Shown here in pieces: positions 7,500-33,228 of a DNA stretch of 34,996 nt; the stretch's first letter is position 1; the number at the start of each line of letters is the position of its first letter. Source of the DNA: an uncultured Armatimonadota bacterium (GTDB taxonomy: Bacteria > Armatimonadota > Fimbriimonadia > Fimbriimonadales > Fimbriimonadaceae). The notes under the pieces were generated by a model, which was given only the letters and a program-made list of their open reading frames with translations, made no database searches and was not told the DNA's origin. A program made the translations under genes and the position numbers. The stretch lies in NCBI GenBank assembly GCA_937862825.1, contig CALMEF010000033.1:1-34996 (forward strand), given 5' to 3'.

Positions 7500-8714
7500 A
7501 TGTTTACTAAGGGATTTCGAACCCTCTCGTTATTGTCAATGGGTGCTCTTGCTGCCCATTCATTCGCAGGCTACGCAACCGGCTTTGAGGCGGGCGAAGG
7601 CTTCACTGGCTCTTCAGGTGGCACGATCTTGGCGGGCCAGAACTTGTGGTACACGCCAGCAGTCGCAAACTCGGCGGACTTCAACTGCTACACCTATGCT
7701 GGCAACGGGTTAACAATGGCAACCAACGCCGCGGGCGGCAGTCAGTTTGCTGGCTTTGTCGGTCCCGGTACCTTGTTGGGCCGCGCCCAACGCCCCCTCG
7801 CCTTCCTATCCGGAGCCTATGTGTTCGAGTACGACGTTTGCTTCAAGTACAACGGCGCGGCAGGACTCGGTTCAAATAATGCTGGTAGCGTATCAACTCA
7901 GGACAGCGTTACAACCAAGGGATTCATTTCCCTTGCCGTTTGGGATGTTGCGGCAACGCCCACAGGTTGGACCCAACAACTCAATGCCTACGACTCGTTG
8001 GGCTCGCCCATAAACAACTACAACCCATTCCAAGTCCTTTCGCTGGATCGTTGGTATCACGTCGCACTTACAGTTGATTTTGCGACCAACCGAGTCAACG
8101 AGATGAAGGTTTACGATCTCGGCTCCGGGGCAACACAAGGTGATCAAGCAGAGCGCTACCTTCAGGGTGGATCAGCGAGCGCACTACCGCTTCCCACGGA
8201 CTTCCGACTCTTTGTTGGCGGCGCGAACGCAGGTAACGCGGGCGGCTACGACAACGTGGCGATCGGTCAACCCGTAAACGTCGATACGCTTACCGTTCTA
8301 CAGGGTGAGGCGTTTGAAGGAGGCGCAAGTGACCTTGCGCTGAGCGATAATGTCCGATTCTCCATGTTCAACGACGCTACAAACCTTCAGGCCGAAGTGG
8401 AAATGTCGGGAACGACTTCAGTCTCCACTCCTAGCGGTATGCGCTTTGAAGTAGAGGCAAGTGTTGGACGGCCTGGTCTTGCCCAAGAGATCTATGTGTA
8501 CAACTTCACGTCCAATGCCTACCAGTTCATGAGCGGCACCACCGCGTCAAGTACTGACATCTCGGCTGGCCGCCTCTACGTTTCGGGGTCGCAGTTCATC
8601 AACAGCGGCGGACTTTTGAAGTCGAAAGTGCGATGGTCTCCGATCAACGACGAAGATCCCTCTCAAGACGGCTGGCTTCACAGCCTGGACGTCGCTCGCT
8701 GGAACGTCTTCTAA
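7500..8714 (+). CDS. Large secreted protein with LamG-like N-terminus and shared C-terminal domain
   Basis: 404 residues. A signal peptide (MFTKGFRTLSLLSMGALAAHSFA) precedes a YATGFEAGEGF motif that opens a concanavalin/LamG-like beta-sandwich (about residues 30-255). This kind of FE-x-G start is common in exported proteins of PEP-CTERM-bearing bacteria. The last about 145 residues form a separate domain that is also at the end of the protein at 26449-27618; both close with SPINDEDPSQDGWLH and a short hydrophobic tail. No PEP-CTERM, LPXTG or other known sorting tail is present, so the shared domain may itself be the anchor or sorting module (inference). ATG 7500 is chosen because GGAGG (7489-7493) lies 6 nt upstream; ATGs at 7479 and 7494 are badly placed for it. 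Confidence 0.8.
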   Translation: MFTKGFRTLSLLSMGALAAHSFAGYATGFEAGEGFTGSSGGTILAGQNLWYTPAVANSADFNCYTYAGNGLTMATNAAGGSQFAGFVGPGTLLGRAQRPLAFLSGAYVFEYDVCFKYNGAAGLGSNNAGSVSTQDSVTTKGFISLAVWDVAATPTGWTQQLNAYDSLGSPINNYNPFQVLSLDRWYHVALTVDFATNRVNEMKVYDLGSGATQGDQAERYLQGGSASALPLPTDFRLFVGGANAGNAGGYDNVAIGQPVNVDTLTVLQGEAFEGGASDLALSDNVRFSMFNDATNLQAEVEMSGTTSVSTPSGMRFEVEASVGRPGLAQEIYVYNFTSNAYQFMSGTTASSTDISAGRLYVSGSQFINSGGLLKSKVRWSPINDEDPSQDGWLHSLDVARWNVF

Positions 8715-12040: not shown

Positions 12041-12862
12041 ATGCATGAGAACCACTGGGGACTGAACGAGCCGCCGTTCAGCCTAACACCAGATCCGCGG
12101 TTTCTTCATATGAGCCGTCAGCACGAAGATGCGCTGATGATGCTTCATTACGCCATCACACGCAACAAGGGTGCTGCGATGCTTGCCGGAGACATCGGTC
12201 TTGGCAAGACCACGGTCAGCCGCAAGTTGCTTGATTTGCTAGATCCGGTTCGATTCAAGGTTGTGCTGATTGTCAACCCGATTTTGACGCCGGTCCAGAT
12301 TCTTCAAGAGATTCTGGGGCAGTTAGGTGTAGAGACGACAAGTCGAAACCGACAAGTGCTCGTCACCGACCTCCACAAGGCTCTGCTTGCCTACTATGAG
12401 CGTGGATCACAAGTCGTGGTGATGATCGACGAAGCGCACCTGATTCGGTCTGCCACGACACTTGAAGAACTCCGACTGCTATTGAACTGCCAAATGAACG
12501 ACCAGTTCCTGATCAGTCTTGTCCTTCTTGGCCAAGTCGAACTTCGGGCAAAAATCGCCAAAGTTCCTGCGCTTGAGCAGCGATTGGCGATCCGACACAC
12601 GATTCAACCATTGGATGTCACCGAAACCGGTGAACTCATTCTCCACCGACTTCGAGTGGCGGGTTACACGGGCGAAGCCAATATTTTCACTCCGGATGCC
12701 ATTTATGAGATCCACAAGTTCACAAAAGGCTATCCGCGACTCATTTGCCAGGTCGCCGACAATGCGCTCTTGATGGGCATGGTCCACAAGGCCAAGAACA
12801 TTGACGGCTTCCTGATGCACGACATCATCGCCGAATTTACCGGCCAGGGGAAAGCAGCATGA
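12041..12862 (+). CDS. ExeA/GspA-like AAA ATPase of the pilus operon
   Basis: 273 residues. The N-terminus HWGLNEPPFSLTPDPRFL is the ExeA-family hallmark. Walker A is AGDIGLGKTT (about residues 49-58), Walker B is VVVMIDEAH, and the sensor region is PALEQRLAIRH. In Aeromonas type II secretion ExeA works with ExeB at the inner membrane and peptidoglycan to assemble the secretin. This protein contains only the ATPase part: the membrane and peptidoglycan-binding regions of full-length ExeA (about twice as long) are absent. Its place as the first gene before pilM-Q, 4-bp overlapping the next gene, suggests a role in building the PilQ secretin or in pilus function (inference). Tn7 TniB-type ATPases share the fold but the context argues against transposition. 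Confidence 0.88.
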   Translation: MHENHWGLNEPPFSLTPDPRFLHMSRQHEDALMMLHYAITRNKGAAMLAGDIGLGKTTVSRKLLDLLDPVRFKVVLIVNPILTPVQILQEILGQLGVETTSRNRQVLVTDLHKALLAYYERGSQVVVMIDEAHLIRSATTLEELRLLLNCQMNDQFLISLVLLGQVELRAKIAKVPALEQRLAIRHTIQPLDVTETGELILHRLRVAGYTGEANIFTPDAIYEIHKFTKGYPRLICQVADNALLMGMVHKAKNIDGFLMHDIIAEFTGQGKAA

Positions 12863-13326
12863 ACTTCGCAGAAGCCATCCGCCAAGCCTCGACGACGAAA
12901 CATGAGACTCACGCCTCAAAAGACCCTACACCACAGGTGTACCCTCACGTGACTCAACAAGAAGAACCCACTCCCGAGTTGGAAGTCGTCACTTCGAAGG
13001 CAGACGCTGCCGTCGATGCGGTCACGGCTCAACCAGTCTCGATTCCTGAAGCACCCGTTGTTACCACCGGAAGCGTTGTGCGACTGGAGTTGTTCCTCAA
13101 CCCTGAACAGTTGACCAATCTGTTCCGAGCGGTTTCGGCAACCCAGCACAGCATGATGACGCTTCGAGAGGCTGCTTCATACCTCCGCGTCCACGCGACC
13201 GTGCTTGAGCAAATGGCCCAAGACGGCGAGATCCCGGCTTTCAACATCGACGGCCGTTGGCGATTCCCGAAGAGTGGAGTCGACGAATGGCTAACGTTGC
13301 AGGCCTTCCGGAAGGAGAGTGCATAA
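12859..13326 (+). CDS. Protein with C-terminal excisionase/MerR-like helix-turn-helix
   Basis: 155 residues. The first about 70 residues are rich in Thr, Glu, Pro and Val and look disordered. The C-terminal about 55 residues read MTLREAASYLRVHATVLE, then EIPAFNIDGRWRFPKSGVDEWL, a standard HTH_17 (excisionase family) DNA-binding fold. There is no membrane segment. It is embedded in the pilus operon: ATG overlaps the ExeA stop (ATGA) and its TAA directly abuts the pilM ATG. Partner of the ATPase, operon autoregulator, or adaptor without DNA binding are all possible; none is shown by the sequence. The location of a DNA-binding domain inside a pilus assembly operon is unusual. Confidence 0.8.
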   Translation: MNFAEAIRQASTTKHETHASKDPTPQVYPHVTQQEEPTPELEVVTSKADAAVDAVTAQPVSIPEAPVVTTGSVVRLELFLNPEQLTNLFRAVSATQHSMMTLREAASYLRVHATVLEQMAQDGEIPAFNIDGRWRFPKSGVDEWLTLQAFRKESA

Positions 13327-14406
13327 ATGGGATTTTCACCTTTCAAGAAGCGAACATATGTCGGACTTGACCTTGGCCACCATACGCTAAAGGCGGTCCA
13401 ACTCGAGCGCAGTGGCGCGGGTTGGAAGGTGGGAAGGATCGGATGGATCAAGACGCCTCAAGACTGTATCAAGGAGTCGGTCGTTATCGATCCAGAGATG
13501 CTTGGTGCAGCAATCAAAGAACTGCTGCGCAATAGCCACATCACTGCGAACACGGCAAACATTGCTGTCGCCGGTGGATCGGTTGTGGTGCGAAATGTTC
13601 GCATCCCCAAGATGCCCGAGACAACCTTGAGGAAGTCAATTAAATACGAAGCATCTCGCTATGTACCGAGTTCCGTCGAAGAGAGTTATATCGAGTTTGA
13701 GATTCTGCGCGAAGCCGAAGAAAATCAAATGGATGTGCTCATCGTCGCCGCTCCGCGCGAAGTGGTCGAATCCAGAATCAAGGCTTGCGAATATGCGGGC
13801 CTCGCAGTCGAAAACGTCGACGTCGAGACCTTTGCCGCTTACCGCAGCCTCGTAGAGTCGGACACCGCTCACGACTGGACCGGGCGAACAATCGCCCTAA
13901 TTGATGTAGGAGCAGCGTCCGCCAGCCTCAGCGTCGTCCGGGATGGCGAGTTCGTCATCACGAGATCATTGCCCAACGGCGGGCAAGTGCTGACCGAGGC
14001 GCTAAAGAACTACTTCAAACTTGAGGACGACGATGCCGAGACCGGCAAGTCTCAACTCAACGTGATGGAACTCATCGGCGACCAGCCGAAAGAGAATCCT
14101 CCGCTTCGAGTGCTTCAACCTCACGTGGACGATTTCGTTCGCGAGATCCGGCGCTCACTCAACTACTATCAGTCCCAACAGGGCCAAACCGAGAATCCCA
14201 ACGTAGACGCTCTCATCGTGAGCGGAGGCGGCGCAAAGTTGCCTGGCATCACAGAGTACGTCGCGGCGAAACTCGGGCTAGAAGCCTTGTCCAGCGGCAT
14301 CTTTGACAACCCCCGTTTCCACGGTGCGAACGAATCGTTCGGTCGTGGTCTAGAGTTGTCAGTTGCATCGGGACTTGCCATGCGGGCGTTTGGGAGGGCC
14401 GCATAA
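13327..14406 (+). CDS. pilM: Type IV pilus assembly protein PilM
   Basis: 359 residues, actin-like ATPase fold on the cytoplasmic face of the inner membrane, which binds the N-terminus of PilN and links the alignment complex to the motor. Visible are the first phosphate motif VGLDLGHHTLKAVQLE, the ALIDVGAASASLSVV motif, and the adenosine-site VSGGGAKLPGI, at the expected spacing. The length is typical. The start codon immediately follows the preceding TAA, with AAGGAG about 11 nt upstream. First of the conserved pilMNOPQ order. Confidence 0.95.
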   Translation: MGFSPFKKRTYVGLDLGHHTLKAVQLERSGAGWKVGRIGWIKTPQDCIKESVVIDPEMLGAAIKELLRNSHITANTANIAVAGGSVVVRNVRIPKMPETTLRKSIKYEASRYVPSSVEESYIEFEILREAEENQMDVLIVAAPREVVESRIKACEYAGLAVENVDVETFAAYRSLVESDTAHDWTGRTIALIDVGAASASLSVVRDGEFVITRSLPNGGQVLTEALKNYFKLEDDDAETGKSQLNVMELIGDQPKENPPLRVLQPHVDDFVREIRRSLNYYQSQQGQTENPNVDALIVSGGGAKLPGITEYVAAKLGLEALSSGIFDNPRFHGANESFGRGLELSVASGLAMRAFGRAA

Positions 14407-14418
14407 GGAGAATCCGAA

Positions 14419-15015
14419 ATGCCACTCATCAATCTAATCCAAGAACAGAGACTGACTCAAAAGGCAAACGAGCGGAAGGCACGACTCTTTCTGTTCGGGC
14501 TCGCTGGATCATTTGGTCTGTCGCTAACTGGGTTTGGGTTCCTGATGTTCCAAGGCGATCAACTCTCTTCTGAAGAGTCGAGGTTGAAGGCCAAGGCGCA
14601 AAAGGTTGCACCGCTTGTCAACGAGATTGAGACCTTACGCGCTCAAGTTGCTGACATCGGACCGAAACTCACAACGCTTACGACCGCACAAGAAACCACC
14701 GGTAAGTGGACTCGAATTCTCGGGCACCTCACCCAACATACGCCTCCTCAAACGTGGCTAACCGGAATGAGATGCACGGCAACCGATCCCACAAAGCCAA
14801 TCCAATTGGTTTTCTCAGGAATGAGCAGCCGCCAGGAACTGGTGGGCGAGTTCATTCTCAGACTGCAAGGCTGTGAGGACCTTGAGAAAGTCGAACTCAA
14901 GTTCACCCAAGAAAAAGTTGTTTCGAACGCTCGAAACATCGAGTTCGAGTTATCCACGGACATCAAGGGGACGGCCGAAGAGAAGCCGGTGAAAGAAGAG
15001 GAGGAGAAGTCATGA
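14419..15015 (+). CDS. pilN: Type IV pilus assembly protein PilN
   Basis: 198 residues. The N-terminal INLIQEQR is the conserved PilN segment that docks in PilM. One membrane helix follows (about residues 24-44, LFLFGLAGSFGLSLTGFGFL), then a coiled coil and a periplasmic ferredoxin-like domain with the TGMRCTATDP and GMSSRQELVGEFILRLQ stretches. It pairs with PilO in the periplasm. AAGGAG lies 9 nt before the ATG; the stop overlaps the pilO start (ATGA). The C-terminus is very acidic/basic (KEEEEKS). Confidence 0.92.
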   Translation: MPLINLIQEQRLTQKANERKARLFLFGLAGSFGLSLTGFGFLMFQGDQLSSEESRLKAKAQKVAPLVNEIETLRAQVADIGPKLTTLTTAQETTGKWTRILGHLTQHTPPQTWLTGMRCTATDPTKPIQLVFSGMSSRQELVGEFILRLQGCEDLEKVELKFTQEKVVSNARNIEFELSTDIKGTAEEKPVKEEEEKS

Positions 15016-15656
15016 ACAAGTCACCCAATCCCATCATCTTTCTCGCGATGGGCGTGCTGACGGTTTTGCTTGGTGGAGCGGCCTGCTATTGGCAGCTCAA
15101 CAACAACTCCGACACCGCTTCTCGCATCGAGAAACTCAAGAAGGAAGACAAGGACGAGAAGGCTCTGAAGACCGAACTCGCTCAGGCCACTGAAGAGTTT
15201 TCCATCGGTGCCGAGAAACTCGCTCACCTTGAGAAGAGTGTCTCCGAAGCGGCCTACGTCCCAACGCTCCTGAAGGAACTCGAGGCCTTTGGAAAGGCCA
15301 GCGGCATTGCCGTGACCGGCGTCAGACCAGTCGCTCAGCAACAATCCAAGCCAGGCAAGGACAAGGACAAAGACAAAAAGAAGGCCCGAAAGCCGTACGT
15401 TGAACTTGGCATCGAAGTCAAAGGACGCGGAAGTTATCGTTCGGTCATGAACTTTGTCGAGGCCCTACAGTCCTTCCCAAAGATCGTTGCCGCGCGAACA
15501 ATGGCGCTCGTTCCGAAGACTGAACAAAACAACGTGATGTCCGGACTTGAGGTGACGATTGAACTTCGCACCTACGTTTTCACCCCTCCGGTTGACAAGA
15601 AGGAGGGCGACTCCAAGACCGCCATGCGCGATCAGGAGGCAACCCCGAAGGGATAA
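15012..15656 (+). CDS. pilO: Type IV pilus assembly protein PilO
   Basis: 214 residues. Short cytoplasmic tail, one membrane helix (PIIFLAMGVLTVLLGGAACYW), a Lys/Glu-rich coiled coil, and a periplasmic domain with VPTLLKELEAFGKASGIAV and GSYRSVMNFVEALQSFPKIV, which are the PilO signature region. It forms the inner-membrane alignment complex with PilN and PilP. A run of KDKDKDKKK in the middle is a polar loop. ATG overlaps the pilN stop, with AGGAGGAG upstream. The TAA at 15654-15656 is followed by a run of A where an ATGA-type start for the next gene would be expected. Confidence 0.92.
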   Translation: MNKSPNPIIFLAMGVLTVLLGGAACYWQLNNNSDTASRIEKLKKEDKDEKALKTELAQATEEFSIGAEKLAHLEKSVSEAAYVPTLLKELEAFGKASGIAVTGVRPVAQQQSKPGKDKDKDKKKARKPYVELGIEVKGRGSYRSVMNFVEALQSFPKIVAARTMALVPKTEQNNVMSGLEVTIELRTYVFTPPVDKKEGDSKTAMRDQEATPKG

Positions 15657-15681
15657 AAAAAAGAAACTCGCCCTTGGGGGT

Positions 15682-16302
15682 ATGGGCATCGCCCGGTTTG
15701 CGATTGGAGGCTCCCGGTGCGGGGGGGGAGGATCAGAACCGCCAGCGCCCCCGAAGAAGGAGAAGCCAAAGGCAACCGCTCAAACCACAGATCCGAAGGA
15801 ATCTGAGGCGGGAACGGTGGCAAGTGAAGACCCTGGCGTCATCAATGAAGGCGCAATCGTCGCCGCAGCCGCGCTGCCCGCTCGCGATCCTTTTGACGGC
15901 TCCATGTATCAACCAAAGCCACAAGAGATCAAGCCGACTCCGCCCCCAACGACGGCGCCACAGCCTCGCGGACCTCGAGGGTCAATCACGGGTAAGTTGC
16001 CACCTTTCGATCCGGGAATGGGCTCATTGCCAAACCCGACCGGCAACGGCGGAATCACGCTGGAACCTGGCAAACCGATGGTGGACCCGACCGCATTTGG
16101 CTACGGGGTTTCCGGTGTGATCACTGGGGCCCAACCGGCGGCTGTATTCACTGACGCAAATGGTGCGCAGCGCCTCATCAGCGAAGGCGGAGCCATCGAT
16201 GGCGACAGTCGAGTCATTTCGATTTCGCGCGGCAAAGTTGTCGTGCGACACAAGAACAAAACCCTAACACTTACTGTGGGAGGATCAACCAATGAAAAAT
16301 AG
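15682..16302 (+). CDS. pilP: PilP-like protein, N-terminal start uncertain
   Basis: Positional and C-terminal homologue of PilP, the periplasmic link between PilNO and the PilQ secretin. After a hydrophobic, glycine-rich start comes a long Pro/Lys/Thr linker (about residues 20-140). The last about 65 residues, from GYGVSGVITGAQPAAVF, through LISEGGAIDGDSRV, to VVVRHKNKTLTLTVGG, fit the PilP beta-domain. The first in-frame ATG is at 15682 but has no usable Shine-Dalgarno. The open frame continues upstream through LysLysLysLysLeuAlaLeuGlyGly to the pilO stop, where no start codon exists. Restoring a single G between T15654 and A15655 would create an ATGA overlap and the start MKKKKLALGGMG. Eight A (15655-15662) and eight G (15721-15728) flank the region. 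It overlaps pilQ by 11 bases. Confidence 0.7.
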   Translation: MGIARFAIGGSRCGGGGSEPPAPPKKEKPKATAQTTDPKESEAGTVASEDPGVINEGAIVAAAALPARDPFDGSMYQPKPQEIKPTPPPTTAPQPRGPRGSITGKLPPFDPGMGSLPNPTGNGGITLEPGKPMVDPTAFGYGVSGVITGAQPAAVFTDANGAQRLISEGGAIDGDSRVISISRGKVVVRHKNKTLTLTVGGSTNEK

Positions 16303-18892
16303 AACCCGTTACCTGTTAGTAGCATTGGCGGCAATCGCGAGTGCGACGTCCTTGGCCGGATCATCCAAACTGACCGGTTTCAAAGCCGCCGCAAAGGGCT
16401 CAGGCTTCGAGGTTCAGATCCTCGGTGACAACCTGGGCAAGCCTCGCGAAATCCGCACTCAAGGCAATAAGTCGCTCGTTTATGAGTTCGATGCCAACCT
16501 TGTTGGGAAGGCGAAGCGCGAGAAGATCGGCACCAATGGACTGAGTTATGTCCAAAGCACCTGGTTCAAGCCGCGCCCACCCAAGGTCCGCGTTCAACTG
16601 CGCGTGGACCCGAAGGTCAAACCTTCCATCTCCGAGAACGAAGATGGATGGCTGGTCTCGTGGCAGACAACACCTTCACGTGCTTCCGTCGTCCCCGTAG
16701 AGAGCCAGAAGGCCACTGCGGCGAACAATGTGATCATTCGATCCATTGAAAGCAAGCCGTTTCCGAACTCAGTGCCGCCGCTGGAGCCTGCTCCAAACAA
16801 GCCGGTCGCCCGACAGGGCGCTCCGACGTGGGCAACCGTCGCTGAACATCGTGAACGAATGGTCTCGCTGGACTTCGTAAACACCGAAGTCGTCCAGATT
16901 CTTAAGGCGCTTGCTTTACAAGCCGCAGTCAACATTGTCACATCGCCAGATGTCAAAGGAACGTTGACTGTCTCCCTGGAACGGGTAACCGTCAACGAAG
17001 CACTTGACCTGGTCACGACCCTCGCTGGTGTTCGTTATGCAAAGGTTGGCAAAACCTTTGTGGTGACGGCGAGTTCCAAGTTCTCCGATGCCATGCGTCA
17101 AGTTGGCGGTGCCGTCGATGCAGGTCTGGAAACGCGAGTCGTTCCGATCTACTCGGGCGAAGGTAATCAGATTAAATCAGCTATCCTTCGGTCCACCGTA
17201 CTTGACACCACGGAAGGTCGTATTGACCTCGTCCTGCCATCAGAAGAAGTCAAGGTCGAGAAGTCCGAGAACTTGAACCCGACCAACGGGGATGGCAAGC
17301 CCGCCGATCCTTCGACCAAAATGTCGATCGAAACGAAGTCCGCCAAAGAAGCTGGCAAAGACCCTTACGTCGTCGTCATCGGCCCAGCCAACCGACTTCA
17401 AGAGATTGAGCGACAGGTTCAGGCAGTGGACGCACAAATCTGCCGCGCACTCGGGATTGCAGTGCCATCAACCAACTCCATGGTTCGAAAGGTCTACAAC
17501 CCGCGAGGCTCGAAGGCAGTTGACTTGCTCAAGGCAGTCGCAGGTGCCAATCTGGACACCAACAACCCCCATCGAGCACTACTCGGAAACGTCGAACTCG
17601 TTGCCACACCAGTGAATAGCATCAGCGAGCAAGCCATCGTGCTCTACGGTCGCGAGTCTGAAGTTAACAAGTTGAGCGCAGACTTTGCCGCCCTCGACGC
17701 AAACATCGGATCCGATCGTGGCGACTACCTGATCTATGAAGTGAAGTTCCTTGATCCCCGGGCGCTTCGCGAAGAACTTGTGGTTGCCGTGCCAGGCCTG
17801 GTGGTATCGATTCCGCCTGCCTCCGCAGGAAACACGAGAATCTTCAAGCCCAACGCTGCAAAGCAAATGGGTGCAGATCAGTTCGACGAGAACAAGCCAC
17901 AAGTTCCTTCGGGTAACCAAGGAGGCCAAGGTGGCGGCGGTGCAGCAGCTGGTGCCTCCGGCGCGGCCGGAAGCGCAAATCCGAGTGGTCTTTCACAACC
18001 ATTCCAAAACAACGAGCCAGCCGCAGTGCCCATGAAACTCGTCCTCCGAGGAACCAAGGAGCAGATAGACCGTGCGCTCAACTACTTGACCGCAATCGAT
18101 GTCAGTCCGCGACAAGTTGCGATCGAACTCCGCATCATGGACTTAAGCAAGCAAGATGCCGAGAAGGTCGGAATCGACTGGAGCATCGTGACTGGCGGTT
18201 CCGTCAACCTGATCCGAATGGTGACCGGAACGATTAGCCAAAACAATGGCGGACTTGATGTTCAGATCGGCTCAGGTGGACCGAGCGACAGTCGTGTCCT
18301 GGCCACGCTGGACTCAATCATGACCAAGGGCAACTTGATCGCAAGACCAAACATCTTTGCCTTCGATGGACGTGAGTCGGAATTGTTCGTCGGTGACACG
18401 ATTCGATACGTCGAGTCGATTCAGTCGACACAGAACGGCATCAGCGTCACAACTGGCGAGGTATCGATCGGGGTTCGCATGGCTTTGCTCCCACGAGTCT
18501 CGGCCAATGGAACCATCACGATGGATCTTCGACCGCAAGTGAGCACGCTCCGAGGATTCACCCCGATTCCTGGCGGCGGACAACTGCCCCAGACTGGCAA
18601 TCGGGAAGCCCAGATGACCGTCAACATCAAAGACGGTGAGACCATCGCGATTGGCGGCCTGATCAATGACGCCGAGAGCCGAACCGAGACTGGTATCCCG
18701 ATCTTGAAAGATCTGCCAATCATCGGCCGACTCTTCAAGGGGACTGACAAGCAGAAGGTGCGCAGCGAAGTCGTGTTCTTCATCACCGCCAAGGTGATCG
18801 ACGACAAGAACCGTGGCAATGCTGCCGAACCAAAGCGGGATGGTCAAGTCCCACCAGAAAAGGCGAAAGTTAACGACAAGATCGGAAACTGA
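16292..18892 (+). CDS. pilQ: Type IV pilus secretin PilQ
   Basis: 866 residues; forms the outer-membrane pore for the pilus. Signal peptide (MKNRTRYLLVALAAIASATSLAG), an AMIN-like beta region (about 30-125), a secretin/TonB short N-terminal domain starting LDFVNTEVVQILKALALQ (about 190-260), two or more N-domains (about 270-500), then a Gly/Ala-rich linker GGQGGGGAAAGASGAAG (about 546-562). The secretin core is at about 615-840. The core has ARPNIFAFDGRESELFVGD, the VNIKDGETIAIGGL motif and PILKDLPIIGRLFKG, all characteristic. The ATG has GGGAGG 8 nt upstream. Last gene of the operon; a terminator follows. Confidence 0.95.
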   Translation: MKNRTRYLLVALAAIASATSLAGSSKLTGFKAAAKGSGFEVQILGDNLGKPREIRTQGNKSLVYEFDANLVGKAKREKIGTNGLSYVQSTWFKPRPPKVRVQLRVDPKVKPSISENEDGWLVSWQTTPSRASVVPVESQKATAANNVIIRSIESKPFPNSVPPLEPAPNKPVARQGAPTWATVAEHRERMVSLDFVNTEVVQILKALALQAAVNIVTSPDVKGTLTVSLERVTVNEALDLVTTLAGVRYAKVGKTFVVTASSKFSDAMRQVGGAVDAGLETRVVPIYSGEGNQIKSAILRSTVLDTTEGRIDLVLPSEEVKVEKSENLNPTNGDGKPADPSTKMSIETKSAKEAGKDPYVVVIGPANRLQEIERQVQAVDAQICRALGIAVPSTNSMVRKVYNPRGSKAVDLLKAVAGANLDTNNPHRALLGNVELVATPVNSISEQAIVLYGRESEVNKLSADFAALDANIGSDRGDYLIYEVKFLDPRALREELVVAVPGLVVSIPPASAGNTRIFKPNAAKQMGADQFDENKPQVPSGNQGGQGGGGAAAGASGAAGSANPSGLSQPFQNNEPAAVPMKLVLRGTKEQIDRALNYLTAIDVSPRQVAIELRIMDLSKQDAEKVGIDWSIVTGGSVNLIRMVTGTISQNNGGLDVQIGSGGPSDSRVLATLDSIMTKGNLIARPNIFAFDGRESELFVGDTIRYVESIQSTQNGISVTTGEVSIGVRMALLPRVSANGTITMDLRPQVSTLRGFTPIPGGGQLPQTGNREAQMTVNIKDGETIAIGGLINDAESRTETGIPILKDLPIIGRLFKGTDKQKVRSEVVFFITAKVIDDKNRGNAAEPKRDGQVPPEKAKVNDKIGN

Positions 18893-20220: not shown

Positions 20221-20229
20221 GTGAAACAA

Positions 20230-21423
20230 ATGAACTTATCAATCAAATGGTTGGCCATCGCAGCCGCCACAGTCGCGATTGCCGGATGCAACGGCGGCTC
20301 GACAGCCTCGTCAACCACCGGTGATACGGGTGGCTCAACTCCCTCTGGCGATACGATCAAGGTTGGCTTGGTCGCAAGCATCAACGGGGCCCTAAAGCCC
20401 TGGGGCGTGGATAGTCAAAGCGGCGCTCAACTCGCTGCTGACGAAATCAACGCCGCTGGCGGAGTTAACGGCAAGAAAATCGAACTTATCGTCGAAGATT
20501 CAAACTCGACTCCCGAACAGGGTAAGACAGCGGCTGAACGGCTCATCGCAAAGGGATGTGTCGCGGTTGTCGGCGAAGTGGCCAGCGGAATCACCGCCCA
20601 AATCGCCAATGCTGCTGCTGAGAAGAAAATCCCGGTTGTGGCCGTCGGCGCCACCAAGACCGATCTTCCAGGAATCGGCGATTACGTCTTTCGAGTTTGC
20701 TACACGGACGACCTTCAAGGCCCGGTTATGGCAACGTTCGCCTATGAAGCACTCGGACTCAGAAAGGTCGCGTTGGTTACCGATAACAAGCAACCTTACT
20801 CCACTTACCTCAGCAAGACTTTCCGAGATTCCTTCGTGAAGCAAGGCGGTCAGATTATTGACGAGCAGTTTTATGAGTCTGGCAACACGCAGTTCAGTGG
20901 CCTGCTCACGAACCTGAAGGCGAAGAATCCCGATGGCCTCTTCCTCAGCGGCTACTTCACCGAAGTTGGTCCGCTGGTCCGACAAGCCAAGGAAGCCGGT
21001 TTGAACGCCAAGTACCTTGGCGGCGACGGCTGGGACAGCGCGGAAATTCTGACGAGTGGCGGCGATGCCATTCTGGGCTCCTACTTCTGCAACCACTACA
21101 ACAACCAAGAAGACCGACCCGAAGTCAAGGGATTCTTGGACAAGTGGAAGGCCAAATACGGCGGTGTTCCGGGTACGACAATGGGTGCGCTGGGCTACGA
21201 TGCGATCGCGCTCGTCGGCGATGCTCTCAAGCGTGCCAAGTCGCCAACTTCAGCGGATGTTTTGACCGCAATCTCCGAAACCGAGAACTTCGCTGGAGTT
21301 TCTGGGTCCATCACGCTGAAAGGCATGGGCGGTAACCCTCCCAAGCGGGCACTTGTCGTTGAACTTCAGAAGGGCGGCCAGATATTCGCCAAAGCCTACG
21401 AAGTTACGGACGTCAAGAAGTAA
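20230..21423 (+). CDS. livJ: Branched-chain amino acid ABC transporter substrate-binding lipoprotein
   Basis: 397 residues. Type I periplasmic binding protein (LivJ/LivK, Peripla_BP_6). The N-terminus MNLSIKWLAIAAATVAIAGC ends with a lipobox Cys, so the protein is membrane-anchored. Family stretches are IKVGLVASINGALKPWG, AAQLAADEINAAGGVNGKKIELIVED, TPEQGKTAAERLI and the ligand-site VAVVGEVASGITAQIA. The C-terminus has the LGYDAIALVGDAL helix. ATG 20230 is preferred over the GTG at 20221 because AGGAAGG lies at the right spacing for 20230. Substrates in the family range from Leu/Ile/Val to other amino acids or amides, so the ligand is not proven. It opens a four-gene operon with the two permeases and one ATPase. 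Confidence 0.93.
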   Translation: MNLSIKWLAIAAATVAIAGCNGGSTASSTTGDTGGSTPSGDTIKVGLVASINGALKPWGVDSQSGAQLAADEINAAGGVNGKKIELIVEDSNSTPEQGKTAAERLIAKGCVAVVGEVASGITAQIANAAAEKKIPVVAVGATKTDLPGIGDYVFRVCYTDDLQGPVMATFAYEALGLRKVALVTDNKQPYSTYLSKTFRDSFVKQGGQIIDEQFYESGNTQFSGLLTNLKAKNPDGLFLSGYFTEVGPLVRQAKEAGLNAKYLGGDGWDSAEILTSGGDAILGSYFCNHYNNQEDRPEVKGFLDKWKAKYGGVPGTTMGALGYDAIALVGDALKRAKSPTSADVLTAISETENFAGVSGSITLKGMGGNPPKRALVVELQKGGQIFAKAYEVTDVKK

Positions 21424-21426
21424 AGC

Positions 21427-22662
21427 ATGTCAGCGAGTAACGCCAAGGATGGCCAAGGGCGAAACCCTGCAGGCAGGGCAGTCCTTGGCGTTCTCGTAGT
21501 CCTGCTCCTCGCATTTCTGATTGGCGTCTTCCTTTTCAAGGCAGACGCCAAATCTTTCCCCCAACAGTTGGTCGGTGGAATACTCCTGGGTTCAATTTAT
21601 GCCCTGATCGCCCTCGGATACACCATGGTGTATGGTGTGCTCCGGCTGATCAACTTCGCCCATGGCGAAGTGTTCATGTTGGGTGCCTACACCTCCCTGC
21701 TTACCTCTTGGGTTTTGGGATTCGGCCAAGGTTCTCAGAAAGAAGCCACCTCACCCATCACACTAGCCATCATGCTTCTGGTCAGCATGGCGGTCTGCGG
21801 AATCGTAGGCGTACTCATTGAACGATTCGCCTACCGACCCATGCGGAACCAACCCCGAATCGCCTCGTTGATCACCGCGATCGGCGTCTCGTTGCTCCTG
21901 CAGTACGGTGGTGCACTGGTGCTACCAGTTTCACCTCCGCCTAGCGTCAACGAGAAGGTTAATCCCTATCGCGAGGTCCTCAAGATTCCAGTCGTCCCAC
22001 AAGACAAAGCACTTCTTGAGCAGTTCAACTCTGCAGAACAAGAAGTGAAACGTATTCAGACCGAGATGCGGGAGGCTCAAGACCGAAAGGACCCAAGCGC
22101 TGACGGCTTCATTCGACTGAAAAGCGAAGCGGAAACCAAGTTGAGAGACGTTCAGGGCAAACTGGACCAAACGGGTCTAGTCCTCCGAATCCCCGTGGGC
22201 CAGTTGATCATGTTTGGCACGACAATCGTGCTCATGCTACTCCTCCGCCACTTGGTGCTGTTCACAAAAACGGGCCGGGCGATGCGCGCGGTCTCACACG
22301 ATTTTGATTCCGCAGGGTTAATGGGCATCAACGTTGGGCAGATTGTCACGCTGACGTTTTTGGTCGGTTCGGCCCTGGCAGGTGCAGGTGCCATGATGAA
22401 CGCGACGTTTATTGGTACGGCCCTAACCACTCAATTTGGCGTACTGCCTGGCGTGAAGGCCTTTGTGGCTGCCGTTCTTGGTGGGATTGGCAACATCCCT
22501 GGGGCAGTGCTCGGAGGACTCTTGATGGGTGTTGCCGAAAACGTGGTTACCTGGTACGGCAAGGGGCAATACCGCGACGCTATCGCCTTCGTCATTCTCA
22601 TCGTTGTGTTGCTATTCAAACCCGGTGGGCTACTCGGTTCAGCCAAGGTGGAGAAAGTCTGA
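21427..22662 (+). CDS. livH: LivH-type permease with a coiled-coil insertion
   Basis: 411 residues, well above the about 290-310 usual for LivH. The typical segments are all present: LVGGILLGSIYALIALGYTMVYG, RLINFAHGEVFMLGAY, IERFAYRPMRNQPRIASLITAIG, RAMRAVSHDFDSAGLMGINV, and PGVKAFVAAVLGGIGNIPGA. An extra stretch at about residues 187-248 (EQFNSAEQEVKRIQTEMREA onwards) is highly charged and predicted helical, inserted where LivH normally has a short loop between the two halves. The N-terminus also has an extra about 15 polar residues and a first membrane helix. Only 3 bases separate it from the binding protein stop, and its stop overlaps the next ATG by one base. Confidence 0.92.
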   Translation: MSASNAKDGQGRNPAGRAVLGVLVVLLLAFLIGVFLFKADAKSFPQQLVGGILLGSIYALIALGYTMVYGVLRLINFAHGEVFMLGAYTSLLTSWVLGFGQGSQKEATSPITLAIMLLVSMAVCGIVGVLIERFAYRPMRNQPRIASLITAIGVSLLLQYGGALVLPVSPPPSVNEKVNPYREVLKIPVVPQDKALLEQFNSAEQEVKRIQTEMREAQDRKDPSADGFIRLKSEAETKLRDVQGKLDQTGLVLRIPVGQLIMFGTTIVLMLLLRHLVLFTKTGRAMRAVSHDFDSAGLMGINVGQIVTLTFLVGSALAGAGAMMNATFIGTALTTQFGVLPGVKAFVAAVLGGIGNIPGAVLGGLLMGVAENVVTWYGKGQYRDAIAFVILIVVLLFKPGGLLGSAKVEKV

Positions 22663-23882
22663 TGGTTTGGTTGATTCGATTGGCATCGATTGCGGCGGCG
22701 CTTGGGTTCTGCTTCGGCGTGGACATGTTGGCGCGAAGTGGCGATGCGCTGGTCATCCGCTTGGTGACCCTTGCTGGTCTTTACGTCACCCTATCTGTAA
22801 GTTTGAACCTGATTAACGGCATTACAGGTCAGTTCTCAATCGGTCATGCCGCTTTCTATCAAGTGGGCGCGTACACCGGCGGGTACATCTCAGCAACCTA
22901 TGCAAAGGGCCTCGTCCCGGACAAGGATCCAGTGATGGCAGCGGTCTACCTTATCGGATTCATGATCGTGGGGGCCTTGGCAGCTGGCTTAGCCGGATTC
23001 ATTGTGGGCTTGCCCTCGTTGCGCCTCAAGGGCGACTACCTGGCCATCGTCACGCTCGGGTTCGGCGAAATCATCAGAATCGTCGTCCAGAACACTCAAC
23101 AACTCGGCGGTTCATACGGATTGAATGTCACGCCAAAGATTCAGATGATTTGGCTGGTCTGGTTGCTCGCCATCATCTGCATTGCGGTCTGTCGAAACCT
23201 GCTCAAGTCCGCTCATGGACTCCCCTTCCTTGCGGTTCGCGAAGATGAAATCGCGGCAAGCGCAATGGGTGTAAATCTCACCAAGGTCAAAGTTACCGCG
23301 TTCGTGATCGGTTCAGCCTTTGCGGGCGCGGCAGGTGCCCTCCTGGCCAACTTTGAGGTCTTTATCACCCCGCAGACCTTCAATATGGATGTGTCGTTCA
23401 TCATACTGACGATGGTTGTGCTCGGCGGTACAGGTTCAATCACCGGTTCGGCAATCGCTGGAGCAACTCTCTATTATTTGCCGGAAAAACTTCGAGATAT
23501 GGATCCAATCAAGGGCTCCGCTCTGGTGGCCGCAATCGTTGCCGCTATTGCCACTGTGGCTACACTCAAGTGGTTGGTAGATCACTTCCATGGCACCAAA
23601 CTGAAGAAAGCCGGGGGGATTGTTGGGACCGTCATAGGGGGAATCATCATCCAAATGATCCTCTCCAAACTGCTTGGAGGAGTTAAAGTTCTGCACGACG
23701 CATCGTTCGAAGCCTCCAAGTTACGCATGGTCATTTTCGCAGGCACCCTCATCGTGCTCATGCTCCTCCGACCACAAGGGCTGTTTGCGCATCATGAGTT
23801 CAGTTGGGAGTGGCTCATCAAGACGCTAAAAGGAATTGGAGCATTTGTCTCAGGTCGCAAGAAGCAGGAGGCAGCAAGTTGA
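22662..23882 (+). CDS. livM: LivM-type permease with extra C-terminal membrane segments
   Basis: 406 residues. Hallmarks are YVTLSVSLNLINGITGQFSI, GHAAFYQVGAYTGGY, LPSLRLKGDYLAIVTLGFGEI, FLAVREDEIAASAMGVNL and MVVLGGTGSITGSAIAGA. Usual LivM proteins end about 40 residues after the last of these with an RPQGL motif. Here about 70 extra residues (about 285-355), with two additional hydrophobic helices around LKKAGG, lie between the LivM core and the terminal LLRPQGLFAHHEF. The extra part is unmatched in my memory of the family. Start ATG overlaps the livH stop; the stop overlaps the next gene's TTG start (TTGA). Confidence 0.92.
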   Translation: MVWLIRLASIAAALGFCFGVDMLARSGDALVIRLVTLAGLYVTLSVSLNLINGITGQFSIGHAAFYQVGAYTGGYISATYAKGLVPDKDPVMAAVYLIGFMIVGALAAGLAGFIVGLPSLRLKGDYLAIVTLGFGEIIRIVVQNTQQLGGSYGLNVTPKIQMIWLVWLLAIICIAVCRNLLKSAHGLPFLAVREDEIAASAMGVNLTKVKVTAFVIGSAFAGAAGALLANFEVFITPQTFNMDVSFIILTMVVLGGTGSITGSAIAGATLYYLPEKLRDMDPIKGSALVAAIVAAIATVATLKWLVDHFHGTKLKKAGGIVGTVIGGIIIQMILSKLLGGVKVLHDASFEASKLRMVIFAGTLIVLMLLRPQGLFAHHEFSWEWLIKTLKGIGAFVSGRKKQEAAS

Positions 23883-26448: not shown

Positions 26449-27618
26449 ATGAAAAAAACACTTTTGCTCGCCGCTCTCGGAGCACTGTCGGTGAGCGCAA
26501 ACGCTCAATTCACAGATGGTTTTGAATCTTATGCAGACGGTCCGTTGCTCAGCGGCGGCTGGCTTGCGTGGGGCAACTCTAACAGCGAGGCTGGAACGGT
26601 CGTTTCAAACATGGCACGAACGGGTTCCAAGTCCGTAAAGATTGACACTAACGGTGACGCTGGATTCTCCGATTACACTGACGCTGTACACCCTTGGACC
26701 GGCTTCAGCACCGGCAAGTACGTTGTCCGTTCATGGATGTACCTGCCGACAGGCGGGGCAACCGGAAGCACTCCGTACTACATCTTGATGAACCTCTACA
26801 ACGGCACTGGCGGGGAATGGTCAGTCCAAATGAAGTTCTCTGGCGCAACGGGCAAGGTCACTTCCGACATGCTCGCGCTCACCGATCAAGTGCAACCGGA
26901 CATTGCTTACGATCAGTGGGTGCCGATTCACCACTACGTTGATCTTGACCTTGTGGCTGGTGGCAACGAGCGCGGTGAAGTTCGCGAGTTTTACAACTGG
27001 ACTCGCCTCGAAACTGCAGCATTTCAGGCTGGTTTCATCCACACCTGGAAGGCAGTTAACGCCAACCCAACGGAAATTCAGAACATTGACTTGTTCATCA
27101 ACCCAGAGGGCGGTTCGGCCGTTGAGCACTTCTACGATGATGTGCAGATTCTTCCCAACACCCACACGGTCAGCGCTTCTGCAGTGACCACCACGGAAGG
27201 CGAAGAGTTTGGCGGAGATTTGGGTTCGCTGGCTTCAAGCGATGACAACTCATATTGCGCGTTCAATGACGCCGTGTCGTTGGCATCAAAGGTCTTGGTC
27301 ACGACCAACACCGATCTTCCCTCGATCACTGCGTTCACGTTCAACTTTGAACTTCGCGTTGAGCGACCGGGCGTTCAGTATGCCGTGTACTTCAAGAACT
27401 ACACGACGAACACCATGCAGTTCCAAGCCGGTGCAACCGCACCGACGGCGGACGTTAGCGGATCGGTCACCGTCTCGACGGATGCCATGCGCTATATGAG
27501 CGGAATGGGTGAAATGCAGGCTGAGTTCCGATTCTCGCCAATCAACGACGAAGATCCCAGCCAAGACGGTTGGCTCCACTGCATTGACGTGGCCAACTAC
27601 TCCGTAACCGCGTTCTAA
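26449..27618 (+). CDS. Secreted protein, paralogue of the 7500 protein (shared C-terminal domain)
   Basis: 389 residues. Signal peptide MKKTLLLAALGALSVSANA, then FTDGFESYADGPLLSGGWLAW, the start of a LamG/concanavalin-like beta-sandwich (about residues 20-240) seen in many exported proteins. The C-terminal about 145 residues match those of the protein at 7500-8714: an acidic GEEFGGDLGSLASSDD opening, FNFELRVERPGVQYAVYFKN, and the identical block SPINDEDPSQDGWLH close to the end, with a final short aromatic tail. The N-terminal parts are only distantly alike, so the end domain is the common module. No PEP-CTERM motif. ATG at 26449 with GGAGG 9 nt upstream. Substrate or partner unknown. Confidence 0.82.
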   Translation: MKKTLLLAALGALSVSANAQFTDGFESYADGPLLSGGWLAWGNSNSEAGTVVSNMARTGSKSVKIDTNGDAGFSDYTDAVHPWTGFSTGKYVVRSWMYLPTGGATGSTPYYILMNLYNGTGGEWSVQMKFSGATGKVTSDMLALTDQVQPDIAYDQWVPIHHYVDLDLVAGGNERGEVREFYNWTRLETAAFQAGFIHTWKAVNANPTEIQNIDLFINPEGGSAVEHFYDDVQILPNTHTVSASAVTTTEGEEFGGDLGSLASSDDNSYCAFNDAVSLASKVLVTTNTDLPSITAFTFNFELRVERPGVQYAVYFKNYTTNTMQFQAGATAPTADVSGSVTVSTDAMRYMSGMGEMQAEFRFSPINDEDPSQDGWLHCIDVANYSVTAF

Positions 27619-27643: not shown

Positions 27644-27681
27644 AATCGGGTTGCCGAAATCTCGGCAACCCGATTTATAAT
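27644..27681 (+). terminator. Perfect 14-bp hairpin terminator after the 26449 gene
   Basis: AATCGGGTTGCCGA (27644-27657) pairs perfectly with TCGGCAACCCGATT (27662-27675) across a 4-nt loop, then TTTATAAT. A run of A upstream (27635-27640) makes it potentially bidirectional. The T-tract doubles as the -10 of the amylase gene. Confidence 0.85.
27676..27681 (+). promoter_or_regulatory. Consensus -10 of the amylase gene, nearly leaderless
   Basis: TATAAT (6 of 6), embedded in the terminator tail, ends 10 nt before the ATG at 27692. The mRNA would begin near 27688, leaving about 4 nt of leader and no room for a Shine-Dalgarno. TTGCCG at 27651-27656 (spacer 19) is the only -35-like element and lies in the hairpin. 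Confidence 0.5.
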
Positions 27682-27691
27682 GTAACTTGCA

Positions 27692-30600
27692 ATGATGCGT
27701 GTGCCCCTTGCCCTAATCGGGTTGCTCCTTACCTATGCTGCTGCCTTGGCACAGCCCGTTCAATGGGTCGGCAACACAAAACTCTTCAACAACGGCCTTG
27801 GACAACTCCCAACAAAGGGTGCCTATGTGGAGAAATGGCACACGATCACGGTCACCACGCAAACCTACCCAATCACCACTGGTCAAACGGTCACCGCAAT
27901 CGTGTCGACCGATAATTGGTTGACGAGCCAAGAATACGTATTCACGTTTGACTTCAACGTTGGAAACAACTCACAATGGTATCGAGTGCTGGGGCCGTAT
28001 CCCCCTGGGTCTGACGTTCAGTTGTACATTCGCGCAAACGGCCAGGCAAACTCGGTCGTTTACGATAACAACTCATGGCAGAATTTTGGGTTCTATTCCC
28101 GCTATTCGCCACCATTTCGTCGTGGTGCGATCCTGCAGTGGTTTGAAACCGATTATGTGACGATGCTGAAGCGCCTCCCTGAGGTAGTTGAGGCAGGTTA
28201 CACCGCCATCTATCTTCCACCACCGACTAAGTCTGGAGGAGGAGGATTTAGCGTCGGCTACAATCCCTTTGATCGTTTTGACCTCGGCGACCGACTAAGC
28301 CTCGGTACGGTGCGAACCAAGTACGGAACTGCGCAAGAACTCCAGGAACTCATATCCGTAGCAAAACGGTTTGGCCTCGAAGTCTATTGCGACGCTGTAT
28401 ACAACCACAACGACAACCGAGCCAGCACAGCAATTAATCGATACCCGGACATGATTCCGGAAGATTTTCACATTAGATCGTCAGCCGACACGGGCAACTC
28501 TGAAATCAACTTTAACACCGAGGGACCCTTCACTTTCGGAATGCTCAATCACGATCTCGTTGGTCTCGCCGACATTGCCCACGAGGACCACAACAACACC
28601 CGGACGGGCGCCTTCTCCTTGCCAAGTTACGCGTCCTTCAATAGCAGCGGCAAGCCCTCGTTCGTGAGACAACCACGAAATCCACACTACTACCCGACCG
28701 GGGTTCCTGTTGCCGAGGATGTTCGAGAGTTGCTTGACCGCTGGGGTTGGTTCATGACTCAAGTCGTTGGGTTCGATGGCTTTCGCCTTGATGCCGTTAA
28801 ACACGTTCCTCCATCGTTTTTTGCTACGGCCCTTGGTCAGCCCGGATCAACTTCAACGAACGGATCCATCCTGCCATCGCTGTTCAACGTTAGCCCTGAA
28901 ACCACGATTTTCGCAGAGAACTTTACGTCAAACGCGTATGAGTTGAGAGAGTTTGCCAAGACAGGCATGAACCTGCTCGACTTTCCGTTGAAGTTCGCAC
29001 TTGATGAGTTGTTCAACTCAAGCGGATTTGGGAATCTCGGATCAACGTTGTCAAATTCGTTCGGCCTCGACCCCGCGACAGGAATGCCATACGAGCGAGG
29101 AGGCTTGGGACGGGACATCTCCGTACCCTTCGTACAGAGTCACGATCAAGGACCGCCTTGGTCGAACAACATTGCTCACGCATTTGTCCTCACTAGAGTT
29201 GGTCGCCCAAAGATCTACTTTGACGGGAATAACATTTTGCCGGGGAACTGGTCAAACTTCCCCAAACCAGGACGCGGCGATGCACTGGGATCATTTGGCG
29301 ACACCGTCATCCGCCTCGTTGACGCGAACCTCCGCTTTGGTCGAGGAGACATGGTTAATCGCCACGTCGCGGACCGCCTATATATCTATGAACGTCAAGT
29401 TAGCGGCATGGGCGTCCTTTTGGTAGGGCTCAACAACCGAGGGGATCAGACCGAGTTGAGTACAACCGTTCAAACCGCGTTCGCTGCCGGAACTGTCCTG
29501 AAAGACCTAACGGGACAAAAGCCAAATCTAACTGTCGGATCAACTGGCACCGTAACGGTTGTGGTTCCCGCGAATACGGACTCGAACAGCACGAACAACG
29601 CAAGAGGATATGTCGTTTACGCTCCGCTCACGCCGATTGCAACTGACTCAGTTGATCCGCTGAAGATTATTGATGTTGCGTCAAGCCAACCGTTCACGTT
29701 CAGTTCGGTGTCAAATCCTTCTGGAACTCATGCGACGAGTCGCTCCTACCGTTCCGCACTTGTCAACCGTAACCACGTCAAACTCCAACTCAGTACAGAT
29801 GGTCTGGGGCACTCGGCATGGATAAAGTTGGACGATGGCTTGGGGATCGCCGGGCTAACACCGGCTAGCAACACGTCGGAAGGCCTACTTGATGGTTATG
29901 TTCCCATGACCAAGATCGCGGATGGTCAGTTTGTCTTGGATGGAGTTGATCTAACAAATCTCAAAGAGGGACAGCATTTGATTCGGACGAGGGTTTTCAC
30001 AAACCATGGAACTCGCCCGCCAGTTTTTACAGAGTTTCGTACCTTCTTTGTCCATCAGAAGCCATCTGAGATCAGCGTCGATGGCGACTTGAGCGACCTG
30101 GGCAACCCGATTGCAACTCAGGTGCGAACTCCGTCGTCACAGGGCAACCGATTGGATGCGCTTTTGGTCACCAATGACGATCGTTTTCTCTATTTCGGCC
30201 TGTCCGGCACGGTCGATACGAATGAAGGTCTTACCAACGGGTTAGCCATGTTCCTGGATACCGATCCGGGAAGCGCAACCGGTCTTAGAAACTTTGGAAA
30301 CCTGGATGACGATTCTGGCCCGGCCGCGCGATTACTCTCCAATGCGCTCGTCAATGCGCCAAGCGGGTTCGGCGCCGAGTATGGCGTTGCTGCTTTACGC
30401 AGATCATGGCATGGAACTTATGCCTCGGGATCATTCGCAGGCGACGCAGTTGACCCGTTCACGGTTGGCGGGTTTGCTGGCCTGTTTGAAGTTGATGGTG
30501 TTCCCAGCGGTCGCTTGGAAGGACGCCCATCCAGGATTGCCTGGCAACCCCGACCGACGGCTTCCGGCCCTTACAAAGGCATGGAGGTGGCCATTCCCAT

Positions 30601-31243: not shown

Positions 31244-31279
31244 AACTCAAATGAGTTGGCAATGCCAATTGAAATGGAG
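31244..31279 (+). promoter_or_regulatory. Overlapping hairpins and SD before the PEP-CTERM gene
   Basis: AACTC/GAGTT (31244-31248 with 31253-31257) and TTGGC/GCCAA (31256-31260 with 31264-31268) share two bases and so partly exclude each other. GGAG at 31276-31279 is the Shine-Dalgarno. Confidence 0.35.
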
Positions 31280-31286
31280 ATTTGAA

Positions 31287-31955
31287 ATGAAGAAATTTGC
31301 ACTCTTGGCGGGAGTCGTGGCTTTCGCCGGTAACGCTTTCGGCGTTGACTACTTCCAGGATTTTGAAGGGTCCATCGGCGCAGAATGGTCGACCTCAAGC
31401 ACAGGGTCGTTCAATGGAACTACCCACCTGGGGCGATTCGATAATGCGAGCGCCACGTTGACCGTAAGTGGCCTGACCGTTGGCGAGTTGGTGACTTTGA
31501 CCTTCGACTTCTATGCCTTCGACTCTTGGGATGGCAACGCTGGCGGCGTCGGCCCTGACCGATTCAGAGTCTCGATGAATGGAGCAGACGTTCTTGACAG
31601 CACGTTCAGCAATGTGTCTGGCAACAACCAGAGTTACCCAGATCCCTACCTCGGTGGCAACCACGCTGCACAAACTGGTGCAACGGATGTTGACCAATCC
31701 CATGGCGGAACCTTGCCAAATGGATACTACGGCAACTCGTTGTATTCCTTTGGGGTTGGTAGCAACCCATCGTTTAGCGTATCTGCCACGAGCAGCACCA
31801 TGGCCATTTCTTTCACAGGTTCAAACCTGCAGGGTATTGGAGACGAATCTTGGGGCATTGACAATGTCCACGTTACGAGCGTCCCTGAGCCGGGAACATT
31901 TGCTGCGATCGGCCTTGGCTTGGCGGCAATCGCACTGCGACGCAAGAAGGCTTAG
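31287..31955 (+). CDS. PEP-CTERM protein
   Basis: 222 residues. Signal peptide MKKFALLAGVVAFAGNAFG, a DYFQDFEGSIGAEWS opening typical of LamG-like domains, a Gly/Ser/Asn-rich beta body with long polar loops, then SVPEPGTFAAIGLGLAAIALRRKKA: the PEP motif, a membrane helix and an arginine/lysine cluster. This is the exosortase/PEP-CTERM sorting tail, so the protein is exported, its tail cut, and it probably joins an extracellular or surface matrix. No exosortase gene is in this window. Start ATG 31287 has GGAG 7 nt upstream; longer frames to 31251 add an unlikely prefix. The stop interlocks (TTAG) with that of the convergent riboflavin synthase gene. Confidence 0.9.
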   Translation: MKKFALLAGVVAFAGNAFGVDYFQDFEGSIGAEWSTSSTGSFNGTTHLGRFDNASATLTVSGLTVGELVTLTFDFYAFDSWDGNAGGVGPDRFRVSMNGADVLDSTFSNVSGNNQSYPDPYLGGNHAAQTGATDVDQSHGGTLPNGYYGNSLYSFGVGSNPSFSVSATSSTMAISFTGSNLQGIGDESWGIDNVHVTSVPEPGTFAAIGLGLAAIALRRKKA

Positions 31956-33104: not shown

Positions 33105-33223
33105 CTGCTTACTGTTATACGCCAATTTGTTTTACCAGAGGATCATTTGGTTGCGAGTTTGGACGCAATTCCCAGTTTCAGGTTCAAATGAGTTCAAAAA
33201 GGTATTCTGTTGAACCTGAATGA
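33083..33223 (+). CDS. Possible small ORF (46 residues) coupled to metH
   Basis: ATG with GGGGAG 5 nt upstream, 46 codons, ending in a TGA that overlaps the metH ATG (ATGA), the junction style used within operons in this window. The sequence (MQPRDLLSAYCYTPICF...) has three Cys, no signal peptide and no family I know. It could be a leader peptide or small protein; chance is also possible because the region is a structured leader. Confidence 0.3.
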   Translation: MQPRDLLSAYCYTPICFTRGSFGCEFGRNSQFQVQMSSKRYSVEPE

Positions 33224-33228
33224 ACTCA
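33177..33228 (+). promoter_or_regulatory. Two interleaved perfect inverted repeats around the metH start codon
   Basis: TTCAGGTTCAA (33177-33187) pairs with TTGAACCTGAA (33210-33220), 11 bp; TGAGTTCA (33189-33196) pairs with TGAACTCA (33221-33228), 8 bp. The 3' arms adjoin each other and together cover the ATG at 33220-33222. As RNA, the two stems compete. As DNA, they flank a TATTCT hexamer (33203-33208). Either would control metH expression. Confidence 0.5.

Follow-up and report, generated by a model that had tools for sequence, protein, structure and literature searches.

A C-terminal jelly-roll domain with a near-invariant acidic loop as a candidate surface tag of exported proteins in an Armatimonadota bacterium

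Two carrier proteins and their shared end

Two exported-looking proteins of an uncultured Armatimonadota bacterium end alike, which raises the question of what a common protein end, placed at the extreme C-terminus, might do. Both are encoded in the stretch of DNA analyzed here (34,996 nucleotides, the window), and a first-pass annotation had proposed that their ends form a module for sorting, anchoring or partner binding. The genome from which the window comes (G000; 3.40 Mb in 336 contigs, 94% complete) was searched for further copies, and the proteins in front of the domain are called passengers below.

Both open reading frames exist and their ends match as claimed. Carrier 1 (7500..8714, + strand, 404 aa; its open frame also permits a start at 7479) and carrier 2 (26449..27618, + strand, 389 aa) each have a GGAGG-type ribosome site upstream of the start, as read in the sequence, and a signal-peptide-like beginning according to a hydrophobicity heuristic, which places the probable signal peptides at 7500..7568 and 26449..26505 (+ strand, ends approximate). 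Neither protein belongs to a Pfam or NCBIfam family, and the LamG-like N-terminal parts previously suggested for them find no support in Pfam, where neither carrier matches a LamG family; elsewhere in the genome, Laminin_G_3 was matched by two of 55 passengers. The last ~140 residues of the two carriers are 39% identical (E 5e−29), both contain the GExF...GG segment and the RPG-x5-Y-[VF]-x-N strand, and both carry the identical 15-residue block SPINDEDPSQDGWLH (8637..8681 and 27535..27579, + strand). The shared domain, called the tag for short, is real and slightly wider than first described, as its aligned extent begins at 8262 and not at 8280 in carrier 1 (8262..8711, + strand, a row of alignment A1); in carrier 2 it covers 27157..27615 (+ strand). 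Within the window, the tag profile HMM matches the domain of carrier 1 at E 3e−57, the profile itself including the row of carrier 1. As previously noted, the ends of both carriers are without a PEP-CTERM tail (no PF07589 or TIGR02595 match).

A terminator-like hairpin of 14 pairs lies 3' of carrier 2 (27644..27675, scored on the − strand and assigned to neither), and is weak, since one was seen against a mean of 2.4 in shuffled sequences. It is followed by an alpha-amylase-like protein of 1160 aa (27692-31174), which gave no match to the tag profile, as had been stated, and which stands between carrier 2 and a PEP-CTERM protein (31251..31955, + strand, tail 31878-31946) that belongs to the second system of C-terminal tails in this genome. 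The window also contains a type IV pilus-like cluster (12041-18892) with an AAA ATPase, PilM and an 866-aa PilQ-like secretin, branched-chain amino acid type transporter genes (20221-23882; a periplasmic binding protein and two permeases), and the C-terminal half of a methionine synthase (33220-34866, 548 aa, B12-binding and activation domains), which suggests a split MetH.

The domain of carrier 2 was modeled with AlphaFold2 as a beta-jelly-roll of ~150 residues with ten strands and two short helices (mean pLDDT 95.4). The NDEDPSQDGW block forms the loop between the last two strands and is the softest part of the model (pLDDT ~70). Among solved structures, chain 9eui_D of the phage phi812 baseplate fits the model best (Z 14.9, rmsd 2.3 over 141 aligned residues), while CBM29, CBM4, CBM16, CBM22 and the CBM chain of a mannanase (1wky) scored well below it (Z ~10-11.6), as did MAM domains (Z ~10-11). 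As the jelly-roll fold is common, the fold itself shows no function. Sequence comparisons placed the domain in no known Pfam, NCBIfam or PDB sequence family, matches of the G000 copies being either absent or below the cut-off: no CBM family appeared among the Pfam matches of the 61 aligned domains, solved PDB structures gave no sequence match, and no characterized enzyme domain was matched in Pfam, NCBIfam or by PDB sequence. The nearest candidate was PF14741 (GH114_assoc), matched by two of these 61 domains at E 0.01 or worse, below the Pfam cut-off, and in its middle strands by three of 18 domains from related genomes, one of them above the cut-off (23.7 vs. 22 bits). A distant link of the broader family to PF14741 is thus possible, although the latter is by its name an N-terminal domain and the present one is C-terminal. 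We found no description of the domain in the literature, and conclude that it belongs to no described family.

Copy number, placement and exchange with PEP-CTERM tails

The idea of two paralogues falls short in scale. With the 139-residue end of carrier 2 as query, 63 copies were found in G000 at E ≤ 3e−8, none with an internal stop; every one of the 63 matches runs to within 0-10 residues of where its open frame closes. Each of these 63 carriers, and likewise each open reading frame in a set of 90, has a single domain, with no internal and no tandem copy; both outcomes named beforehand as speaking against a sorting role, i.e., internal copies and a match to a characterized enzyme domain, were looked for and not encountered. 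Alignment A1 and its profile comprise 61 of the 63 copies, as one was cut by a contig end (C247:17420) and another loses its frame inside the block (C206:6096-6464, L068, ending ...SPINDEDPSRGRPSLLDS), the latter being either a decaying copy or an assembly error. The A1 profile finds 73 places in G000, the extra ten being weaker and without the block; in nine of these a stop follows 3-41 residues past the match, while the tenth runs off its contig.

The passengers are diverse. The 61 passenger parts long enough for the comparison fell into 45 homology clusters by BLAST, the largest with seven members, and a Pfam scan of 55 of the 60 listed passenger parts found 22 families, none in more than two proteins. 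Among them were Laminin_G_3, Big_9, cadherin-like, Sortilin-Vps10, SBBP propeller and beta helix families, so that Pfam assigns the passengers it recognizes mostly to propellers, LamG, cadherin-like or repeat domains and not to glycoside hydrolases. Judged by the hydrophobicity heuristic, 50 of the 56 carriers whose 5' end is complete begin with a signal-peptide-like segment (seven carriers cut at this end were omitted), compared to 124 of 290 other long open reading frames taken from the same DNA, a control set that probably includes many non-genes.

The genome has 61 PEP-CTERM tails, a number about equal to that of the loop-bearing tags, and an exosortase is encoded at C42:15475-16425; two C-terminal tail systems coexist. 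Of 68 PEP-CTERM-tailed open reading frames (a set obtained with our own profile, in which five low-scoring members may be false), eight share a homologous passenger with a tag carrier (E ≤ 1e−5). Six of the eight pairs are 65, 69, 57, 54, 45, and 38% identical over 140-274 residues, which is most of the shorter passenger, and their homology ends 0-3 residues from both tails. Three junctions were inspected, one of them reading YYDNLSFAAV-PEPSTV... in the PEP-CTERM protein and YYDNLSFAEV-QQTGPSSYSIIQGEEF... in the tag carrier. Some swap pairs are adjacent on one strand (contigs C190, C287, and C43) and others lie on separate contigs (C106 with C244, C52 with C84). The exchange was also visible in tag-centered stretches gathered before the PEP-CTERM search, where four of seven non-carrier homologues of passengers have PEP-CTERM tails. 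A passage of PMC3237569 describes an interchange of GlyGly-CTERM with LPXTG and PEP-CTERM tails between homologues. The PEP-CTERM paralogues might go elsewhere, so the exchange does not prove a same destination.

The loop and the spread of the domain among relatives

Within the 61 aligned copies, the loop PINDEDPxQDGW (12 columns) has a mean pairwise identity of 0.885, against 0.309 for the body of the domain and 0.486 for the best other 12-column window. Four of its positions are acidic in all 61 copies, its N, G, and W are invariant, and an acidic residue closes the 12-residue spacing in every loop. The corresponding DNA pattern was matched 61 times in G000 and not once in 290 other genomes of the phylum (a reversed control gave no match). 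All 61 loop DNA sequences are distinct, and codon pairs for the same residue are synonymous variants in 53% of cases (64% in the body); since the codons are diverse and the residues constant, selection holds the block at the protein level, and a recent DNA-level homogenization of the loop can be dismissed. Two known loop types were considered and rejected. FrpC-type modules self-cleave at an Asp-Pro bond, and this pair is missing in seven of the 61 loops. Calcium loops of the EF-hand or dockerin type have ligand-competent residues at positions 1, 3, 5, and 12; here, positions 1, 5, and 12 are acidic in 61/61, but position 3 is D, N, S or T in just 27/61 and Ala in 33/61.

A broader form of the domain, for which the same strand order was predicted (pLDDT 95.3), was found in 82 of the 291 phylum genomes searched, most of them in the family of the window's genome (f1) and in another family of the same order (f35); one or two copies turn up sporadically elsewhere. 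Complete searches of seven tag-rich genomes gave 35, 36, 33, 60, 40, 19, and 19 copies. Strict C-terminal placement extends to these relatives: in four of them (G163, G186, G168, and G161, with 36, 40, 60, and 35 copies) the stop lies 0-10 residues beyond the match in all 81 complete copies studied, figures that cover part of the copies, since stretches were selected around 78 of the 171, mostly the best-scoring ones; in other genomes, 18 of 18 complete copies are C-terminal, a nineteenth, open-ended one being left out. The relatives end in GPxxxxxWxAxIDxVxW in place of the NDEDP block and thus have the same predicted fold without the acidic loop. Their last 30 columns are hardly more conserved than the rest (0.64/0.64, 0.34/0.33, 0.32/0.28, and 0.26/0.25 in the four genomes), and the contrast between loop and body seen in G000 is absent from all four. 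The tag ends of G163 (L139-L158) are alike (KEAGIVLxFPWLISFDQTVW), yet its whole domain is equally alike (0.64 throughout), a pattern as after recent duplication.

A homologue 72% identical to a domain from G163, a member of the window's own family, is encoded in JADFGT010000002.1 (an Armatimonadetes MAG). It is the sole named homologue found, and it agrees with placing the organism in the Armatimonadota. A search of a genome contig collection with the A1 profile returned 16 pattern matches and no relatives, and the domain was not found in plasmid and viral contig collections. Similar ends may occur in other phyla. Genomes such as G196, G173, and G201 live with no detectable tag, which makes it dispensable.

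The tag appears to follow the genome and not the passenger. When the loop columns were omitted from the tree, a weakly supported branch (SH-aLRT 65) separated the 61 loop-bearing copies from the rest. Eight G000 passengers have a relative of at least 35% identity over 150 residues; in none of these cases did the relative's domain rank first within its genome, and between 33 and 60 of the remaining 60 G000 copies were nearer than it. Among the four relatives, 11 of 18 passenger pairs carry each other's closest domain, although the G000 pairs are one-way best matches, the control pairs are reciprocal and the relative sets are partial. As the domain of the relative was never the closest (0/8), the tags of G000 appear to have been renewed together, independent of their passengers.

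No partner emerged from the search for co-occurrence with one transporter or protease that had been put forward as support for sorting, since exosortase and secretins are present both in genomes that carry the domain and in genomes that do not. Exosortase is present in 73 of 81 genomes of the family regardless of tag number (e.g., in the tag-free G196 and G173), and was rejected. Secretins were found in 16 of 16 genomes with or without many tags; a class of ~800 residues, judged by length and score only, is missing in the tag-rich G186, G142, and G187 and present in the tag-free G196, G202, and G162, and was rejected too. SprA (PF14349) had no match in ten genomes, and the control genomes gave none either.

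Candidate functions and likeness to known systems

The proposal of a C-terminal sorting, anchoring or binding module is thus well supported by strict placement, 45 clusters of exported passengers and exchange with PEP-CTERM tails, whereas sorting and glycan binding are not separable on these grounds. We lean, with some reserve, towards reading the domain as a folded C-terminal tag by which Sec-exported proteins are sent to the cell surface or kept there, replacing a PEP-CTERM tail. This function, which we infer, is suggested by the constancy of the loop and by the PEP-CTERM exchange. Passengers would cross the inner membrane by means of their heuristically predicted N-terminal signal peptides, and the end of ~150 residues would fold as the beta-jelly-roll predicted with high confidence. 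The PINDEDPxQDGW loop may then be the surface that one shared partner recognizes, be it an envelope transporter, an anchoring protein or a surface glycan; if 63 copies meet this same partner, the loop would stay constant while the rest drifts. A change of partner in the ancestor of the genus could have changed the tags together, which would account for the observed pattern of a tag that follows its genome, and the module would finally route its passenger to the surface or keep it there.

The main rival, which we consider unlikely, is that the domain acts as a carbohydrate-binding module for one constant extracellular ligand (a substrate or matrix glycan), with no role in sorting or self-anchoring. 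Such modules need no sorting machine, the predicted fold resembles CBM29, CBM4, CBM16, CBM22, and 1wky, a conserved Trp and an acidic loop would suit a sugar or calcium, and the link to GH114_assoc (three of 18 relatives' domains, one above the cut-off) points in the same direction; a glycan-binding role fits poorly with a domain that is never internal and never tandem, with Pfam-matched passengers that are mostly not glycoside hydrolases next to an amylase without the tag, and with an exchange against a sorting tail at a residue boundary. Less probable still is that the loop is kept for a structural calcium needed in folding outside the cell and not for a partner, with the domain as a stabilizing cap. 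The four fully acidic positions, the invariant N, G, and W and the acidic residue closing the 12-residue spacing would agree with this, as would the low confidence of the modeled loop (~70), which a metal loop modeled without its metal might show. However, the third position of an EF-hand-type loop fits in just 27 of 61 copies, relatives of the same predicted fold do without the acidic loop, and a need for folding leaves both the C-terminal placement and the tail exchange unexplained.

Neutral spread, in which the end domain is copied by recombination and homogenized by gene conversion with no shared partner, is largely refuted and seems very improbable: the bodies are ~31% identical against 88% for the loop, whose codons are nearly as diverged as elsewhere and whose DNA is distinct in every copy. 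The three side-by-side swap pairs on one strand (C190, C287, and C43) do indicate that local duplication moves tails, and the position of the loop-bearing copies on one side of a tree branch would also be in line with such a spread.

The surface-tag reading can be carried one step further, as a tentative suggestion that we hold with less confidence: a family of Armatimonadota may have an undescribed addressing system, in which the jelly-roll is the address and a lineage-specific loop the key for one envelope machine or receptor, swappable with PEP-CTERM and re-keyed genus-wide in over 60 proteins that are mostly unrelated. The C-terminal tail of an exported protein reveals the surface pathway to which it belongs, and the present one marks ~63 proteins in G000 and 19-60 per genome among seven relatives; the surface of this phylum has received little study. 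If it is a true tag, a single loop would offer a testable lock-and-key and the domain would name a large set of co-localized surface proteins, besides giving a rare case of a whole address code re-keyed within one bacterial family.

Among known systems, carbohydrate-binding modules and MAM-type jelly-rolls share the (predicted) fold of the tag, which differs from them in being without a sequence match, in being always C-terminal and single, and in having a loop unique to G000 within the phylum sample. The type IX secretion system (T9SS) is described as a system of Bacteroidota. Its C-terminal domain (CTD) is comparable, as it too is folded and sits on many exported proteins exclusively at their end, although the tag's fold is a predicted one, and it sets a precedent for a folded domain in such a role; passages of PMC4804311 and PMC11285876 present this CTD as a folded beta-sandwich that acts as the outer-membrane export signal, the latter giving it as a compact immunoglobulin-like 3+4 sandwich (beta1-beta7), whereas the tag has ten strands and jelly-roll relatives. 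For MYXO-CTERM, a passage of PMC11980579 describes dozens of proteins per genome sorted by one enzyme; GlyGly-CTERM, MYXO-CTERM, and LPXTG are all motif-helix-basic tails read by a protease or transpeptidase, parts that the tag does without. PEP-CTERM is likewise a ~24-residue motif with a membrane helix and a basic end, in contrast to a folded domain of ~150 residues without membrane helix or basic tail, and its exosortase does not track the distribution of the tag. Nevertheless, PEP-CTERM resembles the tag in that dozens of unrelated Sec-exported proteins of one genome end in it, and in G000 it occupies the same slot on paralogous passengers.
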